64,000 nt of DNA, from NCBI GenBank assembly GCA_017535315.1, contig JAFXUD010000067.1:1-64000 (forward strand), given 5' to 3'. Positions within the stretch are counted from its first letter, which is position 1. Each line of letters starts with the position of its first letter. Position numbers and translations under genes: made by a program. The notes beneath the pieces are model-generated. The model made no database searches. It was given only the letters and a program-made list of their open reading frames with translations, and had not been told where the DNA came from. The stretch is from Victivallales bacterium (GTDB taxonomy: Bacteria > Verrucomicrobiota > Lentisphaeria > Oligosphaerales > Oligosphaeraceae). Positions 37,751 to 47,402 of the stretch are shown here, in pieces.

Positions 37751-38422
37751 TTAGTATTTGGTTCGCCACATGATGTTGTAGTAGTTGCTGTCCGTCTTGG
37801 CCTCGACATGGGCGTCCATCATCAAGGCGTTGTAGGCGTTGTTGTGTCGGAATTTAACCAGGCAGTTGGCGTTCCCCTTGGTGACGGAGGGGGCGTATTC
37901 ATCGCTGACATCCTTGTGTTCATCCGTGTCATGCCATGCATAGGTGAAGGAGCCGCCGTCGCAGGCGCTGATGGTCTGGGATGGCTTCTTGAAGGCGTTC
38001 AGCTTCTTCATGCCATGAGCATTTTCGCATCCACCAAGCCACCAGGCGCGCCCGTAGGATGCCTCCAGGGTGCTTTCGTAGGTGACCCTGTCTGTGGAGG
38101 TTGGACGGAGTGTTGTGACAGTATATGGCACGTCGGAATCGCAGACATAGCATTTGATGTCGCCGACATAGTTGGTCAGGGCGTCAATCCAGGTGTAGCG
38201 GACGGTTTGGTTTTCCGCATATGTGTATGTGTAGCAGTTGTAGTTTTTGAAGTCGGAAGAATAGCTGACCATAGCCAGTCCGAACTGCTTGAGGTTGTTG
38301 ATGCAGCTGATGGCCTCCGCTTTTTCGCGTGCCTTGGAGAGAGCGGGGAGGAGCATGGCGGCCAAGATGGCGATGATGCCAATGACGACAAGAAGCTCGA
38401 TGAGCGTGAATCTCTTTTTCAT
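37751..38422 (-). CDS. Pilin-like protein, array member 2
   Basis: 223 residues with the same prepilin N-terminus and H-X9-DA ending ([15 protein letters not shown]). It is closest to array member 3: both have the short first loop [10 protein letters not shown] / [10 protein letters not shown] and the [13 protein letters not shown] block. The RBS AAGGAT lies 10 bases before the ATG. It is separated from member 1 by 33 bases. Confidence 0.92.
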
Positions 38423-38444
38423 GCTTTACAGATCCTTTTTTAGG

Positions 38445-39116
38445 TTAGTATTTGGTTCGCCACATGATGTTGTAGTAGTTGCTGTCCGTCTTGGCTTCGA
38501 CGTGGGCATCCATCATGAGGGCGTTATAGGCATTGTTGTGTCGGAACTCAACATTACAACTGCTATTGCCCTTGGTGACGGTCGGTGCGTATTTGTCGCT
38601 GACTTCCTTGCCTTCATCAGTGGTTTGCCATGCATATGTGTAATAATTTCCATCGCATACGCTGATGGTCTGGGATGGCTTCTTGAAGGCGTTGAGTTTC
38701 TTCATGGACTTGGAACTTTCGCAGCCGCCAATCCACCATGCACGTCCATAGGATGCATTCAGGGTGCTTTCATAGGTGACCCTGTCCGTGGAGGTTGGAC
38801 GAAGGTCTGTGATAGTATATGGCACGTCGGAATCGCAGACATAGCACTTGATGTCACCGACATAGTTGGTCAGAACGTCAATCCAGGTGTAGCAGACGGT
38901 TTGGTTTTCCGCGCGGGTATAGGTGTAGCAGTTGTAGTTCTTGAAGTCGGAAGAGTAGCTGACCATAGCCAGCCCGAACTGCTTGAGGTTATTGATGCAG
39001 CTGATCGCCTCCGCCTTTTCGCGCGCCTTGGAGAGTGCGGGGAGGAGCATGGCGGCCAGGATGGCGATGATGCCGATGACAACCAGAAGCTCAATCAGAG
39101 TAAATCTCTTTTTCAT
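38445..39116 (-). CDS. Pilin-like protein, array member 3
   Basis: 223 residues. ATG 39116 has AAGGAA 6 bases upstream; the frame is open to 39266 only because it reads through the end of member 4. The conserved four-Cys framework and the C-terminal NIMWRTKY are present. It differs from member 2 mainly in the loop [14 protein letters not shown] and in RPTSTD-flanking positions, which suggests a recent duplication. Confidence 0.92.
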
Positions 39117-39129
39117 GCTAGATTCCTTC

Positions 39130-39816
39130 TCAGTTTTTCGTTCGCCACATGATGTTGTAGAAGTTGCTGTCTGTCTTGGCTTCGACGTGGGCGTCGAACA
39201 TGAGAGCGTTGTAGGCGTTGTTGTGGCGGAACTTGACTTTGCAACTGGCATTGTCTTTTGTGACATATTGGGCGAAGACGTCGCTGGTCATCGACTGTCC
39301 GTTTGTGTCCCATGTAGTCCAGTCCGAATAAGAGTAGGTGCTTCCGTCGCAGACGCTGATGGTCTGTGAGGGCTTTTTAAAGGCGTTCATCTTATACATG
39401 TTGCCTCTGCCGCTACCGCCGAGCCACCAGGCGCGTCCGTAGGAGGATTCGAGGGGATTGTCGTAGGTGGTAGAGCTGGTGGATGGCGGGCGCATGTCAC
39501 TGTATGTATTGGGCACCTCCGAATCGCAGATGTAGCTTTTGGAATCGCCGACGTAGTTGATGATGCCGTCCATCCAGACGTAGCGAATCTGATCATCGCC
39601 AGCGGTACCAGAATAGGTATAAGTGTAGCAGTTGTAGTTTTTGAAGTCGCCAGAGTAGCTGACCATGGCGAGTCCAATCTGCTTGAGGTTGTTGATGCAG
39701 GCGATAGCCTCCGCCTTTTCACGGGCCTTGGAGAGGGCGGGGAGAAGCATGGCGGCCAGGATGGCGATGATGCCGATGACAACCAGAAGTTCAATCAGGG
39801 TGAATCTTTTTTTCAT
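39130..39816 (-). CDS. Pilin-like protein, array member 4
   Basis: 228 residues. It belongs to the second subgroup of the array ([41 protein letters not shown]). Loop 1 is [13 protein letters not shown] and loop 3 is [12 protein letters not shown]. An AAAGGA lies just before the ATG. Same fold and presumed export route as its neighbours. Confidence 0.92.
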
Positions 39817-39847
39817 TGTCCTTTACCTTGTCACAATCAGAAATAAT

Positions 39848-40528
39848 TTATTTTGTACGCCACATGATATCGCTGTAGTTGCTGTCCATTTTGGCTTCGA
39901 CATGTGCATCGAACATAAGGGCGTTGTAGGCGTTGTTATGGCGGAATTGCAGATTGCATGAGGAATGGCCCTTGGTGACATAGGGGGCGAAGACGTCATT
40001 TGGGATGATTCTGCCGTTGTCTTTCCAGATAGTCCAGCTTGCATACGAGTAAGCGTTTCCATCCGTGGCGTTGATAGTCTGCGACGGTTTTTTGAAGGCG
40101 TTCATCTTGAGCCTGTTGGCAGTGCAGTCACCGCAGAGCCACCAGGCGCGCCCATAGGAGTATTCGAGGGGATTGTCGTAGGTGGTGGTACTGGTGGATG
40201 GCGGACGCATGGTAGTGACGGTTTTGGGTACATCGGAGTCGCAGACATAGCTTCTTGAATCGCCGAGATAGTTGATGATGCCGTCCATCCAGGTATAGCG
40301 GATTGCATCTGAACCAGACCCCGAACTGGAGTAGATATAGCAGTTGTAGTTGTTGTAGTCGGAGGAATAGCCGACCATTGCGAGTCCAATTTGCTTGAGG
40401 TTGTTGATGCAAGCGACGGCCTCCGCCTTTTCGCGTGCCTTGGAGAGTGCGGGGAGGAGCATGGCGGCCAGGACGGCGATGATGGCGATGACAACCAGAA
40501 GCTCAATCAGAGTAAATCTCTTTTTCAT
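39848..40528 (-). CDS. Pilin-like protein, array member 5
   Basis: About 226 residues. The start is taken at ATG 40528 ([13 protein letters not shown]), not at the upstream ATG 40564 that only extends the frame. Loop 1 is [12 protein letters not shown] and loop 3 is [12 protein letters not shown], with two additional Cys. The ending is [18 protein letters not shown], again H-X9-DA. Confidence 0.92.
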
Positions 40529-40560
40529 TTTGTGGTTTCTTCCTATTCTTTTCCAGACAA

Positions 40561-41253
40561 TCATTTTTTAGTGCGCCACATGATGTCGTTGTAATTGCTG
40601 TCCATCTTGGCCTCGACGTGTGCGTCGAACATGAGGGAGTTGTAGGCGTTGTTGTGGCGGAATTTGACGTTGCAGGTGGAGCTGGTCTTGTTGACGAATG
40701 GTGCGAAGGCGTCATTTGGGATGGTTCTGCCGTTGGTGTCCCAAGTCGTCCAGGTGGCGTAGGTGTATGTGCTCCCGTCAGTGACGCTGTTGGTCTGGGA
40801 TGGTTTTTTGAAGGCGTTCATCTTCAGCATAGTGGCTGAACTGCCTCCAAGCCACCAGGCACGCCCGTAGGAGTATTCGAGGGGGTTGTCGTAGGTTGTG
40901 GAGCTGGTTGATGACGGGCGTCTGCTGGAATGGGTGTTTGGCACCTCCGAATCGCAAAGATAGATTTTGGAATCGCCGACATAGTTGATGAGGGCATCCA
41001 TCCAGGTATATTGAATGGCATCGCCATCACTGTCGCCATCGACGCCAGAATAGACGTACGTATAGCAGTTGTAGTTTTTGAAGTCGGAGGAGTAGTTGAC
41101 CATGGCGAGGCCGATTTGCTTGAGGTTGTTGATGCATGCGACAGCCTCCGCCTTTTCGCGTGCCTTGGAGAGTGCGGGGAGAAGCATGGCGGCCAGGATG
41201 GCGATGATACCGATGACGACAAGTAGTTCAATGAGAGTGAATCTTTTTTTCAT
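40561..41253 (-). CDS. Pilin-like protein, array member 6
   Basis: About 230 residues. The start is at ATG 41253 with AGGAG 6 bases upstream. Loop 1 is long and acidic ([15 protein letters not shown]) and loop 3 is [11 protein letters not shown]. It is very similar to member 7 from [10 protein letters not shown] to the C-terminus, so these two form the most recent pair. Confidence 0.92.
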
Positions 41254-41299
41254 TATTGACTCCTGCTTGGAAGGTTGTGATTTAGTGAAGGCTGGAACG

Positions 41300-41992
41300 C
41301 TATGGATATTTGGGACGCCACATGATATCGTTGTAGTTGCTGTCCATTTTGGCCTCGACATGTGCGTCGAACATGAGGGAGTTGTAGGCATTGTTGTGGC
41401 GAAACTTAACTTTGCAGGTGGAACTGCTCTTGTTGACGTATGATGCGAAGGCGTCGTTTGGGATGGTTCTGCCGTTGGTGTCCCAAGTCGTCCAGGAAGC
41501 GTAGGAGAAGGTGCTTCCGTCGGTGACGCTGTTGGTCTGGGAAGGTTTCTTGAAGGCGTTCATTTTCAACTGACGGACGAAGTCACCGCCGAGCCACCAG
41601 GCACGCCCATAGGAGTATTCAAGCGGGTTGTCGTAGGTGGTGGAGCTGGTGGAAGGGGGTCGTCTAGTTGAAAGGGAGTTTGGCACCTCTGAATCGCAGA
41701 CGTAGATTTTGGGATCGCCGACGTAGTTGACGAGGGCGTCTAACCAGGTGTAACGTGGGGCTTCGTCGCTATCGTCATCGCTTCCCGAATAGACATATGT
41801 GTAGCAGTTGTAGTTTTTGAAGTCGGCGGAGTAGCCGACCATGGCGAGGCCGATCTGCTTGAGGTTGCTGATACATGCGACGGCCTCGGCTTTTTCGCGT
41901 GCCTTGGAGAGTGCGGGGAGGAGCATGGCGGCCAGGATGGCGATGATGCCGATGACGACCAGAAGCTCAATGAGGGTAAATCTTTTTTTCAT
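41300..41992 (-). CDS. Pilin-like protein, array member 7 (promoter-proximal)
   Basis: 230 residues and the first gene of the minus-strand array. Loop 1 is acidic ([14 protein letters not shown]), loop 2 NSLSTRRPP and loop 3 [11 protein letters not shown]. The C-terminus is [11 protein letters not shown] near-consensus promoter lies 46 bases upstream (42038-42065). The Shine-Dalgarno is weak, with only GGA before the ATG. Confidence 0.92.
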
Positions 41993-42233: not shown

Positions 42234-43082
42234 ATGAAAAAGCTTTTAATGTCACTATTGCTAATGGTTGGATTTGCCTCCTTTGCTGGTGTAGTGGAGC
42301 CCTTTAAGCAGTTTACGCAAAATGATTATACTTTCAATCCTCGGACAGAGGAGGGACAGAACAATTATTATCAATCAATGATGACACTTAGCGTTAGCTC
42401 TGGTTCGGGTGTTTGGCTTTCGAATTTTGTCGATCATTGGGATTTGTCTGCTTATGAGTACAATCCTGTTGTAGATCTGCACGGTTTTGCATACGATATG
42501 AAGGGCAACCAGAAATATGGCTATATCGATCAAGCAGATCTGGCGAAACTTGCCGAAAAGAAGGGGGTTGACTTACATGATTTGCAGAAAGAAGACTATC
42601 AAGGCATTATCAAATGGGCGTCGAATAACAACGATCCTATTATGATCCAATATAATGATGATGCGGGACATACCAACGAGACTCAAGGCTATTTCTTGGA
42701 CTATTTTGAAAAGGATACGAATATTTACCTTGTTCTCACGACTCTTGAAGCTGATGGTGGTGAGGTTGTTGATGCCTACCAGTATGTGCAGGGTGGGGAT
42801 CCAAATGCCTATGATACTACTCTAGTCTCGCGTCAGATTACCGCGAATCCACAACTCGACCTTGCGGGTAATGTTAGAATCAATTACGGCCTTGACACCA
42901 CTCAACCTACCACTGGTCGTGAGTTTGTCTCAGTCTATGACAATGGCACTTACTCCAAAGATTTGGAGCGAGCCAGATATTCCTCCACAGGTGGACCGCT
43001 TCCAGGTGTCTTTTTTGCAGGTCTGCTTTCACTGGGCACGGTTTTCGGTGCTTCCAAGGTTAAGAGGCAGAAGCGTGCATAA
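42234..43082 (+). CDS. Secreted protein with PEP-CTERM-like C-terminal sorting signal (probable exosortase substrate)
   Basis: About 282 residues. The signal peptide MKKLLMSLLLMVGFASFAG is at the N-terminus. The centre is acidic and Asn/Tyr-rich with no family I recognise. The C-terminus reads GGPLPGVFFAGLLSLGTVFG and then a KVKRQKR basic tail: a short Pro/Gly motif, a hydrophobic helix and a positive cluster, which is the tripartite plan of exosortase-sorted proteins. The exosortase is encoded two genes downstream. I start at ATG 42234 with AAGGAG at 42217-42222. A terminator-like hairpin follows, so the substrate is probably made in excess of the sorting machinery. Confidence 0.75.
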   Translation: MKKLLMSLLLMVGFASFAGVVEPFKQFTQNDYTFNPRTEEGQNNYYQSMMTLSVSSGSGVWLSNFVDHWDLSAYEYNPVVDLHGFAYDMKGNQKYGYIDQADLAKLAEKKGVDLHDLQKEDYQGIIKWASNNNDPIMIQYNDDAGHTNETQGYFLDYFEKDTNIYLVLTTLEADGGEVVDAYQYVQGGDPNAYDTTLVSRQITANPQLDLAGNVRINYGLDTTQPTTGREFVSVYDNGTYSKDLERARYSSTGGPLPGVFFAGLLSLGTVFGASKVKRQKRA

Positions 43083-43115
43083 GTTAGTTGACAGCTTCAC
43101 ATAATTGAGCTTATG

Positions 43116-43156
43116 ACAGACTTCCTCCTAAACAGGTGGAAGTCTGTTCTGTTTTA
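43116..43156 (+). terminator. Intrinsic terminator/attenuator between substrate and sorting genes
   Basis: A 10-bp perfect stem ACAGACTTCC / GGAAGTCTGT (43116-43125 with 43138-43147) is followed by TCTGTTTT. The TPR gene starts at 43162, so transcription of the sorting genes would depend on read-through. Confidence 0.7.
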
Positions 43157-43161
43157 GCATT

Positions 43162-45342
43162 ATGAAAAAAAAGAATTTTTTTATCCTTTTGCTTCTTTCA
43201 GGTGTTGTGGTCGTTGTGGGCTTATGCATCCTGATGACGATCATGGCGCATCGTCGCCAGAAACATACCGCCCTGTATAGGCAGGGTGAGGCTGCCTACA
43301 AGCAGGGTAACTATGAGTTGGCAAGGAAAAAACTCTCCGAGTATCTGTGGCGGGACCCCAATCATGAGAATGCATGGCGTTACCTGGCGGAGATTTATGA
43401 AACAAAACGTCTGTGGCCTGATGCATCGTATGCCTGGCGTCATCTTGTCAGCCTGAATGTTCTCAACAACGATTATGTTGCGCGCTGTGTGAGGGCTACC
43501 TATCGGGCGCATAACTACAAGGGTCTGGATCGTTTTTTCAAGACGCTTCCCGAGGAAAAACGCAAGGAGTTTTCGGAGATATATGCACTGACGCAGTTTT
43601 GGGTGAAGCCAAATGATGAGGCGACGGAGAAAGCACTGGCAGCGATACCGAAGGACGGGGCGACTGCGCGCTTGATCCAGGCGATAACGAGCCAGGGACC
43701 TCTTTCAGAGTTTGAGGCCTTGGAGAACAATGAAGATCCCGTGATTCAGGTGGAGGCGTTGATTCAGGATGGCTATTTATCAGAGCAAAAGGAGAAGAAT
43801 CTGGAACGTGCCGAGCAGGCGTTTCGAAAAGCGGTTTCCATCAACCCTGACCTGTGCCGCGCTGAACTGGCAAACTTCTTTTTCCGTCAAATACGCTACA
43901 AGGAGGCCAATGAAGTCTATAGGCGTATCCGCAATTCTATGATGTCGGATAACTGTTTTCTAAATTATGCGGAGGTGTTGTTCTATTTCAAGGATGAGGA
44001 GGCGCTTCATCATGTGGAAAGTGAGATTCCACGAAAAAACCGTTTTGCCGTTCCGTTGCGTGCCTATATCCAGAGTCTGAACGCCTATCTGCGCAAGGAT
44101 TCCAAGACGATGGTGAAGAACTACAATGTGGCGCAGCAGAATCGGACCACCCCGATGGGGCTGCTTCTCAGCTATGCTGTAGCCGTGGAGGATGCGGACA
44201 TCCCCCTGATGATGTCGGTGCTTGCGCACTGGCGGCGTTCCAAGTTATACAAGGAAAAGCTTCCTGAAATCCTTGTAAATGTGCGTGCGGTCATTGCAAA
44301 GGCCTTGAAGGAGAACAAGCTGGATGAGGCTTCCATGCTGGCGCAGCAATTTTTGCGGTATGAACCTCCTGAGCTGATATGCTGGAGGGCGGTTGTTCTG
44401 GAGCAGATGGCGCATAAGAGTCTGTCAATGAGTACGCTCCAGCAAGCCAGCAAGTTGTTTCCAAAGGAATTGTTCTTTCGTAATCTGGCATTGCGCCTTG
44501 CCCTTTCCAGGGGGAACCGTGAGGAGGCGCTTGCTCTATATGATCAAATGATTGAAATGAGCGATGACCCTGCACGCGACCGCTATAGCAAGGTACTATA
44601 CCTGGAACGGGAAATGCAGTTGGATGAGGCTTTTCAGGAGATTCAGAAACTTTTGAAGACAGAACATTCCATGGCTTCGGGAAAGCACTGTCTGGCCTTT
44701 GGCATCCGCACGGGAAACAGCGAAGCCCTGCGATTGGCAAGCGAGTTCCCTGAACTGGCGCAAATAGCACGCTTTGAGACGGAACGCCGTTTTGGCAATC
44801 TGGAGACTGCCACGAAGATGCTTAAGGAGAACTTTCTAGAGGCGGGGCTTTCTGCAGAGAAAAGCGAAGACAGGGAGATTCTTCTTCCGCTGGGGATCTA
44901 TCTGGCTCTGGTACGTGAATTCGAGCGAGCCAAGGCCATCTACAACGCCTTGCTGCCTTTCGGCGGGAAGGATGCCCTCATTGAACTCAATCTTTCGGAA
45001 ATCTATTCCGCAGAGGGGGATGCAAAACAGGCATTGAAATATGCGGCTGATGCCTATAAGAAACTCCCTGAGTCGCTGCTTGTACAAACCGTCTATGGTC
45101 TGCGCTATGCGGAAATGGAGGACTACGAGCAAGCGGCTACCTACATTCCAGACGATACCATGGATGAGAATGCCAAGGCGGTGCTTCTGACCTGTCTGGA
45201 GAAGAACATCGAGATTGCCTTCACGCAGGGGCGCAATGCCACCTGCCGTACAATCATCAAGCGTCTTCAATCGCTTCAACCAGACAACCCATGCGCCAGG
45301 GAGTATCTGGAGAAGTTGGACGCGCCAGCCAAGCAGCCATAG
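43162..45342 (+). CDS. Membrane-anchored TPR-repeat protein of the exosortase locus
   Basis: 726 residues. One N-terminal transmembrane helix (about 5-28; FFILLLLSGVVVVVGLCILM) anchors a long tetratricopeptide solenoid. Repeat-like segments include LYRQGEAAYKQGNYELARKKL (about 38-58), NLERAEQAFRKAVSINPDL (about 214-232) and NLSEIYSAEGDAKQALKYAADAY near the C-terminus. Large TPR proteins (PrsT type) are regular partners of PEP-CTERM/exosortase systems. It ends 3 bases before the exosortase gene. No clear RBS is visible upstream. Confidence 0.8.
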   Translation: MKKKNFFILLLLSGVVVVVGLCILMTIMAHRRQKHTALYRQGEAAYKQGNYELARKKLSEYLWRDPNHENAWRYLAEIYETKRLWPDASYAWRHLVSLNVLNNDYVARCVRATYRAHNYKGLDRFFKTLPEEKRKEFSEIYALTQFWVKPNDEATEKALAAIPKDGATARLIQAITSQGPLSEFEALENNEDPVIQVEALIQDGYLSEQKEKNLERAEQAFRKAVSINPDLCRAELANFFFRQIRYKEANEVYRRIRNSMMSDNCFLNYAEVLFYFKDEEALHHVESEIPRKNRFAVPLRAYIQSLNAYLRKDSKTMVKNYNVAQQNRTTPMGLLLSYAVAVEDADIPLMMSVLAHWRRSKLYKEKLPEILVNVRAVIAKALKENKLDEASMLAQQFLRYEPPELICWRAVVLEQMAHKSLSMSTLQQASKLFPKELFFRNLALRLALSRGNREEALALYDQMIEMSDDPARDRYSKVLYLEREMQLDEAFQEIQKLLKTEHSMASGKHCLAFGIRTGNSEALRLASEFPELAQIARFETERRFGNLETATKMLKENFLEAGLSAEKSEDREILLPLGIYLALVREFERAKAIYNALLPFGGKDALIELNLSEIYSAEGDAKQALKYAADAYKKLPESLLVQTVYGLRYAEMEDYEQAATYIPDDTMDENAKAVLLTCLEKNIEIAFTQGRNATCRTIIKRLQSLQPDNPCAREYLEKLDAPAKQP

Positions 45343-45345
45343 TCA

Positions 45346-46242
45346 ATGTGTAAATTGCTCCAAACAGACAGCTGGTGTACTATTCGTCAGAATCTTCGTG
45401 TCGTGAAGAGTAGTGCGGGCATCCTTTTATGTGCCATCCTTTTTGGCCTGGTCGAGTTTCTTCTATGGGGAAGGGCGCATTGGGAGGATGGGCTTCTGCT
45501 TTTGGCCCTGCTTTTGCTGGCCTCTTTCGATCAGTTCAAGATCAAGCTCTCCCACAATATAACCTTGCACGCACGCTTGTACAGCTGGGGGATTCTTTTG
45601 ATTGCAGGGGGACTGATGCTGCTTGCGTCCTGCCATTCTTCGGAAGATGGTTCCCATGAACTAGGGCGGGCACTGTGTAAAAACGGTGCCTTTTTCTTGC
45701 TGGCACTTGCGATATCGATGCGTTTTGACGGTGTGAAAACGGCTCTTTCATTTCTGCCTCTTTATTTGCTTTCCATTGTCATTCTCCCCTTGTACGAGTA
45801 TCTTCTGCTGGAGATCAGTTATCCGATGCGTCTGGTCTCGACAGCCGCCGCCTGCTATTTGCTACGAATCTGCGCCGTGACGGTGAGCTTTGAGGGAACC
45901 ACCCTTTTCTGGAATGACCAGGCCATTTCCATTACCGATGCCTGCAGCGGTATCTCTCTTCTAAGCTTCATGTTTTTCCTGGAATATCTGATTGCGCGGA
46001 AAATCCAGGCCCCCTCTTGGAAAAAATGGTGTTGGAGCTCCATGGTACTGATTTGGATCATCCTCGCCAATGCCTTGCGTCAATTGCTGACATTTTTACT
46101 CTTTACGGTCATGGGGGAGAAGGTCCATGAACAGACGCCGCATTTCCTGCTTGGCTGCTTCTTCATCGTTGCTGCTTCGCTTCTGATATGGTTCAGTTCC
46201 TTCCTGTTCCAAATGGACTCACCAAAACAGGATGCGGCATGA
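45346..46242 (+). CDS. Exosortase-family membrane transpeptidase
   Basis: 298 residues with about eight transmembrane segments. The catalytic triad pattern of exosortases is present: Cys200 in ITDACSGISLLS, Arg245 in ANALRQLLTF and His261 or His266 in HEQTPHFLLG. The enzyme should cleave the sorting tail of its substrate and pass it to an acceptor at the inner membrane's outer face. It is a stand-alone exosortase without the fused EpsI domain found in many others; an EpsI-like protein is encoded next, with an ATGA overlap (46239-46242). I cannot assign it to a named exosortase subgroup. Confidence 0.85.
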   Translation: MCKLLQTDSWCTIRQNLRVVKSSAGILLCAILFGLVEFLLWGRAHWEDGLLLLALLLLASFDQFKIKLSHNITLHARLYSWGILLIAGGLMLLASCHSSEDGSHELGRALCKNGAFFLLALAISMRFDGVKTALSFLPLYLLSIVILPLYEYLLLEISYPMRLVSTAAACYLLRICAVTVSFEGTTLFWNDQAISITDACSGISLLSFMFFLEYLIARKIQAPSWKKWCWSSMVLIWIILANALRQLLTFLLFTVMGEKVHEQTPHFLLGCFFIVAASLLIWFSSFLFQMDSPKQDAA

Positions 46243-47402
46243 AGAGAAGCCATTCTATTGTTTTACTATGTGCGTCGTTTCTGCCTTTTCTATTTGAACT
46301 GCCTTACTGTTTTCATGCGATGCGGATTTCTTCTGCGGAACGCTGGAACTGGGGCTTTGGGCTCTGGGCGATTCTGCTGGCCGCTCTCGCCGTCTTTTTT
46401 CGGTTGAAAACGTCGAGAACGCCAGCGAGGAAGAGGGACGCAGGAGAATCCAATTGCCAAACTGAGACTTGCAGACTTGATGAACATGCTCAGGATGCTG
46501 AAAAGGAACCTTCTGACGTACTCTGGCGTTTTGCCAGTCTAGTATTTCCTCTCTTTCTCTTGTTGTTCGGTTATGCGAGGCAAATCCATCTGGCCATACT
46601 TCTCGGGGGAATTAGCCTGCCATTTACTCTGGCAGGCTGTCTGTTCGGCTGGCGGAACATTCTGCTGCTATTGCCGAGTTGTTGCACGCTTGTGCTCTTC
46701 TGCCCCAGTGTTGGCATTCTGCTTTCCGCTCTACTCAATCTTGATGGTGTCCTGCTGAAGCTACTTTGTGCTCTTGGGTTTTTAGTATTGCTGCCTTGTC
46801 TGCTCTATTGCAAAAAGTCCAAAATAAACCTGGAGGCGTTTCTCTTCAGTGGAATTGCCCTGATTGTTGCGGCAGGGTATTGGATGCGTAGCGGAGCCGT
46901 GTCACGTCATCCAGCACTGCTGCCTGTTTTTGACGGCCTTGTCTCTCCCCATTTTCGTGGTGTCCAGGAGAGTGTTTCTGCAGCCGACAGGCAATTCTTT
47001 GGCGACAGTGACGTCAAGCGTTTCCTTTTCAACGACCAGAATGGCAACGCCATTCAGGTATTGGTTGTCAGCAGGATAGACAATGTCCACCAGGTCCATC
47101 CAACGGCCTACTGCCTGCGCGTTGGCGGCTTTCAAATGTTGCACGAGCACGCCTATCGTCTGCCGCAGGCAGGTGAGGCAGTTGAGGTACTGGAGACCCT
47201 TGGGGAACGCTCTGGCGAAAAACGCCTTTTCTGGCAGTGGTTCAGCAACTCCAGTTATTCAACATCTAATTTTATGCTTTTCCGTACTCTTTATTCTTCA
47301 GCAACTGACTGGAGCGTCTTTATCGTCGATATGCCCTTTGATGGCACCCAGGAAGAAGGGCAGGAGATTCTTTTCAGCCTCATTTCCGAGTTCACACCAT
47401 AA
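46239..47402 (+). CDS. Polytopic membrane protein with EpsI-like C-terminal domain
   Basis: About 387 residues. Some six to eight hydrophobic segments (about 5-240) are followed by an extracytoplasmic domain. That domain contains VHPTAYCLRVGGFQ, comparable to the conserved His...Cys...GG(W) strand of EpsI/exosortase-associated proteins. A polar 35-residue insertion lies between helices 2 and 3. The start is ATG 46239, overlapping the exosortase stop; the frame is also open from 46188. The membrane half (FGWRNILLLLPSCCTLVLF) looks somewhat like an exosortase N-terminus without the catalytic residues, so a degenerate exosortase fused to EpsI is possible. Confidence 0.65.
   Translation: MKRSHSIVLLCASFLPFLFELPYCFHAMRISSAERWNWGFGLWAILLAALAVFFRLKTSRTPARKRDAGESNCQTETCRLDEHAQDAEKEPSDVLWRFASLVFPLFLLLFGYARQIHLAILLGGISLPFTLAGCLFGWRNILLLLPSCCTLVLFCPSVGILLSALLNLDGVLLKLLCALGFLVLLPCLLYCKKSKINLEAFLFSGIALIVAAGYWMRSGAVSRHPALLPVFDGLVSPHFRGVQESVSAADRQFFGDSDVKRFLFNDQNGNAIQVLVVSRIDNVHQVHPTAYCLRVGGFQMLHEHAYRLPQAGEAVEVLETLGERSGEKRLFWQWFSNSSYSTSNFMLFRTLYSSATDWSVFIVDMPFDGTQEEGQEILFSLISEFTP

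Follow-up and report, generated by a model that had tools for sequence, protein, structure and literature searches.

A candidate dedicated exosortase sorting cassette with a GxPLPG-tailed substrate in a rumen Lentisphaerota bacterium

On the outer side of the inner membrane, exosortases process proteins whose tails combine a motif, a helix and a basic end, and many unrelated proteins are usually served by an exosortase. Several described systems resemble the locus analyzed here. The XrtA/PEP-CTERM/PrsT/EpsI system (PMC1569441) shares with it an 8-TM exosortase with a Cys/Arg/His site, an EpsI downstream, a PrsT-related TPR protein and a tripartite tail. In Methylobacillus, a stand-alone EpsI adjoining EpsH is the type arrangement (PMC1569441). 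The XrtD/VPLPA-CTERM system (TIGR04152) has a reminiscent Pro-Leu-Pro motif. Rhombosortase/GlyGly-CTERM pairs (PMC3237569) also consist of one enzyme and one adjacent tailed target, but rhombosortase is a rhomboid serine protease unrelated to the exosortase described here, and the tail motif is GlyGly. LPXTG/sortase systems likewise use a motif, a TM helix and a basic tail; in contrast, no sortase (PF04203) was found in the genome holding our locus. Since dedicated one-target sorting is a recognized concept (PMC3237569) and a separate EpsI beside EpsH is known, the dedicated state itself is not new. As judged from sequence, the new elements are a GxPLPG tail signal, whose motif is described by no library searched, an exosortase subfamily that is as yet unassigned, and an EpsI partner that is probably half an exosortase.

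The window, a stretch of 64,000 nucleotides, belongs to a 4.9 Mb MAG (96 contigs, 95.6% complete) to which Victivallales MAGs from goat rumen are the nearest named relatives; the host is a rumen Lentisphaerota bacterium. Four plus-strand genes, encoding a tailed substrate (42234–43082), a TPR protein (43162–45342), an exosortase (45346–46242) and an EpsI-like partner (46239–47402), form one directional block at 42234–47402, each lying where the first-pass annotation had placed it. In a comparison with a genus mate (G034), dN/dS was 0.12–0.22 for each of the four genes, a rough estimate given synonymous distances near saturation; these values indicate purifying selection on all four. We consider it very probable that the block is a dedicated exosortase sorting cassette. 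Just upstream, on the minus strand at 37751–41992, five or more similar pseudopilin-like genes stand in tandem, with an N-methylation motif and DUF1559/SBP_bac_10.

The exosortase matched both superfamily models, PF09721 with 75.4 bits (cut-off 25.7) and TIGR04178 with 40.3 bits (cut-off 23), and its eight hydropathy segments correspond to predicted TM helices. Cys200, Arg245 and His266 were invariant in 39/39 exosortase relatives, which confirms the stand-alone enzyme with a Cys200/Arg245/His site proposed earlier. As tested for the exosortase/archaeosortase superfamily, a cognate tripartite C-terminal signal is present in the same genome. When compared with the NCBIfam exosortase subfamilies (XrtA, XrtD, XrtN, XrtV, XrtW and others), the window enzyme scored under every cut-off, the nearest models being XrtA (48.1 bits, cut-off 208) and XrtD (47.3 bits, cut-off 400). 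Three exosortases from family f11 likewise fell under all subfamily cut-offs. Twenty exosortases from family f1 hit the same range of subfamily models, with similarly weak scores (best E 5e-23), and TIGR04152 matched 20/20 scanned exosortases weakly, as well as some EpsI partners. The enzyme is best regarded as a member of an unnamed exosortase subfamily that has a sorting signal of its own.

The substrate has an N-terminal signal peptide and an acidic body (35 Asp/Glu versus 16 Lys/Arg). Its sorting tail at 42978–43079 (+), detected by both tail profiles (A1 and A5), consists of GGPLPG at protein positions 253–258, a hydrophobic helix and a KVKRQKRA end. The tail and the acidic body were thus as first described, as was the lack of a known family, since nothing scored above cut-off in Pfam/NCBIfam scans. 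An iterated search with the body recovered 15 further homologues at E<1e-3, giving a family of 16 detected members in f1 and f11. Single-linkage clustering grouped 45/59 substrate bodies together, whereas only 16 were kept when iteration from the window was strict; we therefore do not claim a single family for all substrates. The AlphaFold model of the substrate was poor (pLDDT 44.7) and its fold was left uninterpreted; profile matches to the PDB were noise.

In an alignment of 36 tails, the typical sequence was (S/T)GQPLPG, with a hydrophobic helix and then basic residues after it; G, P and P were invariant and L and G near-invariant. No Pfam or NCBIfam C-terminal model reached cut-off on the tailed proteins scanned. 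VPLPA-CTERM, the signal of the XrtD system, had no match on the window substrate (E<=1) or on six other tailed proteins (E<=10), and the LPXTG anchor model reached a sub-cut-off 13 bits solely in the substrate of a relative. In G155 (L126:1313-2050), one protein with a GQPLPG tail came close to the DUF4114 cut-off. G040 has five tandem GQPLPG-tailed paralogues (L133:292-6531), with the exosortase on another contig.

The genome contains one exosortase. A1, a profile of 12 tails built without those of G034 and G029, found the window tail at 52.9 bits (E 2.1e-13), the next best match being noise at E 1.65. With A5, the 36-row profile, the window tail scored 47.5 bits and everything else was noise at <=12.9 bits. 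The sensitivity of A1 was adequate, since it found the G034 and G029 tails, both outside the profile, at ~1e-12. PEP-CTERM (TIGR02595) had 0 matches in the genome. The single tail, together with the absence of PEP-CTERM matches and of a sortase, supports one substrate, a count that holds within a 95.6%-complete MAG in which a second substrate could be missed. The statement that no other protein in the window has such a tail thus extends genome-wide. Of the two outcomes that the first-pass annotation had named as counter-evidence, many PEP-CTERM-like substrates in the genome or an enzyme failing the exosortase models, neither was observed. The exosortase and the tail are ~2.45 kb apart in the window, and 0.7–2.7 kb apart in 23 loci with both on one contig. 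A single tail was also found in G033 and G034, of the same genus, and in G028 and G029. The suggestion of a one-substrate system therefore stands for this genus and a few relatives; elsewhere the same machinery accompanies 2 to ~7 tailed proteins per genome.

These larger sets would fit a general sorter whose further tails diverge too far for the profile to detect, in which case the one substrate would reflect a detection limit. A divergent SPIPTG tail, used by a paralogous cassette (L045) in G035, points the same way. However, A1 recovers tails outside its own profile with strong E-values, and neither the 36-row profile nor the PEP-CTERM model finds anything beyond noise elsewhere in the window's own genome. 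We consider a general sorter unlikely. The G035 genome holds two cassettes, L045 with SPIPTG and L046 with GQPLPG tails, and so offers a natural test of enzyme-tail specificity.

The cassette recurs beyond this genus. The TPR-exosortase-EpsI block is conserved across f1 genera and is found again in f11 and f12, and so in three families of the class, mostly accompanied by a GxPLPG protein; in f11 and f12, one or two such proteins are usually encoded immediately 5' of the TPR gene. Per genome there are 1 to ~7 tailed proteins. Among 29 f1 genomes, 17 had exosortase and tail, 1 the enzyme only, 3 the tail only and 8 neither; presence agrees in 25/29 (Fisher p 3e-4, an optimistic value since related genomes share ancestry). 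The exosortase was present in 23/23 tail-positive f11/f12 genomes and in 0/11 tail-negative class genomes among those listed (ten f11/f12, one f13). In G032, which has a tail and no detected exosortase, the contig stops within the neighboring TPR gene, so that an assembly gap is likely; the genome with the enzyme and no tail, G024 of f1, is 75% complete.

The tail could in principle be an ordinary C-terminal membrane anchor, with the exosortase and EpsI acting on something else, since a helix and a basic end would suffice for anchoring. Such an anchor would not account for the invariant G, P and P in 36 diverse tails, for the genome-level co-occurrence and the adjacency in many genera, or for the loss of enzyme and tail together in the eight f1 genomes with neither, and we regard this explanation as very improbable.

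Canonical PEP-CTERM proteins, up to 137, are present in several other families of the order, where no GxPLPG tail scored above noise. In f1, PEP-CTERM is essentially absent, the three matches there being weak and confined to genus g4. The switch from PEP-CTERM in those families to GxPLPG in f1 thus follows the exosortase type. We give hardly any credence to the idea that the cassette is what is left of a larger PEP-CTERM system in decay, now down to one target: the large sets of the other families were lost in f1, but the four genes are under purifying selection, the enzyme keeps its catalytic residues, and several families conserve the cassette together with a motif of its own.

The EpsI-like partner has ~7 TM segments and a C-terminal EpsI/DUF3485 domain with an HPxxxC motif. 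It matched PF11984 (DUF3485) with 28.5 bits (cut-off 26.1); TIGR02914 gave 20.6 bits, under its cut-off of 42.8, and 33.8 bits with one relative. The gene likely starts at 46239 rather than 46188, where its start codon and the stop codon of the exosortase overlap in ATGA, as they also do in several relatives (e.g. L033, L040 and L044). In the C-terminal domain, His287 and Cys292 were kept in 32/32 sequences. The AF2 model of the partner had a pLDDT of 83.8; a Foldseek search gave weak DcrB/EagR-like matches (best E 5e-3), which we did not use.

The membrane half of the partner resembles part of the exosortase. The N-terminal half of PF09721 matched it in G038, G037, G311, G360 and G180 (E 1e-5 to 9e-4), where the partners are 371–404-codon reading frames adjoining the exosortase. 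Alignment of the membrane half with the exosortase profile by hhalign was collinear (E 5e-5, probability 68%), and the real score of 39.7 was close to the best block-shuffled control, 38.4; homology is consequently likely but not proven. The membrane half is likely an exosortase N-half without the catalytic half. A 658-residue protein in G016 (L035:2974-4950), in which exosortase and polytopic EpsI partner are fused, supports a physical partnership of the two. The separation of EpsI from the exosortase had been taken as a departure from the norm. The split itself is not unusual, as Methylobacillus illustrates (PMC1569441), whereas the polytopic membrane half, resembling an exosortase N-half, is. 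It sets the locus apart from XrtA systems and, in most genomes, together with the split, from XrtD. Further differences from XrtA are the GxPLPG tail, which PEP-CTERM does not match, and the 1 to ~7 substrates. Tentatively, the two proteins may form an obligate pair, in which an active exosortase works on a single substrate together with a catalytically inactive half-exosortase joined to an EpsI domain; we hold this possibility to be somewhat less probable than its opposite. To our knowledge, no function has been assigned to EpsI, and if the obligate pair is real, the cassette would be a minimal natural system for working out its role.

The TPR protein has an N-terminal signal anchor and is a neighbor conserved in relatives. 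Its best named relative is PrsT (TIGR02917), at 45 bits against a cut-off of 312. No PrsK or PrsR genes were recognized by eye in the window. The substrate and TPR genes are separated at 43115–43155 (+) by a terminator- or attenuator-like hairpin (CAGACTTCC...GGAAGTCTG, then a T-rich run). The hairpin with its T-rich run is shared by the window, G033, G034, G032 and G035a and shows one compensated pair; G028, G029, G035b and G038b have analogous hairpins. It is single copy genome-wide and had no match in Rfam. Partial termination, with more substrate than enzyme made, is its natural reading.

From the properties of the exosortase/archaeosortase family, a path for the substrate can be proposed. 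The substrate would be exported via its signal peptide and stay in the inner membrane through its C-terminal helix, with the basic end on the inner side. The exosortase would recognize G-x-P-L-P-G at the outer face, cut at or near the motif with its Cys/Arg/His site, and hand the substrate to an acceptor, anchoring it for display on the cell envelope. The EpsI-like protein may be the membrane partner of the exosortase, with its HPxxxC domain probably periplasmic, and the PrsT-like TPR protein probably acts as a receiver or guide for the substrate. The hairpin 3' of the substrate gene would keep the substrate in excess over the machinery. Unlike in XrtA systems, no conserved exopolysaccharide locus was recognized beside the cassette. 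With four genes, one substrate and an adjacent partner, the questions of the acceptor and of EpsI function are reduced to one testable reaction. Across much of a class associated with gut and rumen, the locus further brings in a sorting signal not described before and a putative exosortase subfamily, neither of which is annotated by current models.

A further group of proteins carries a related segment. Small secreted proteins at L046:3766-4173, L049:12723-13166, L051:11156-11578, L138:1625-2092 and L139:1791-2585, encoded beside substrate or TPR genes, have an internal GQPxPG-TM-basic segment. After the segment comes a conserved extension of ~40 residues ending in WQRVELRL, WQKTVLRL or SPGPDLFCQRE. 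These proteins are possibly a second, specialized target or an accessory of the exosortase.
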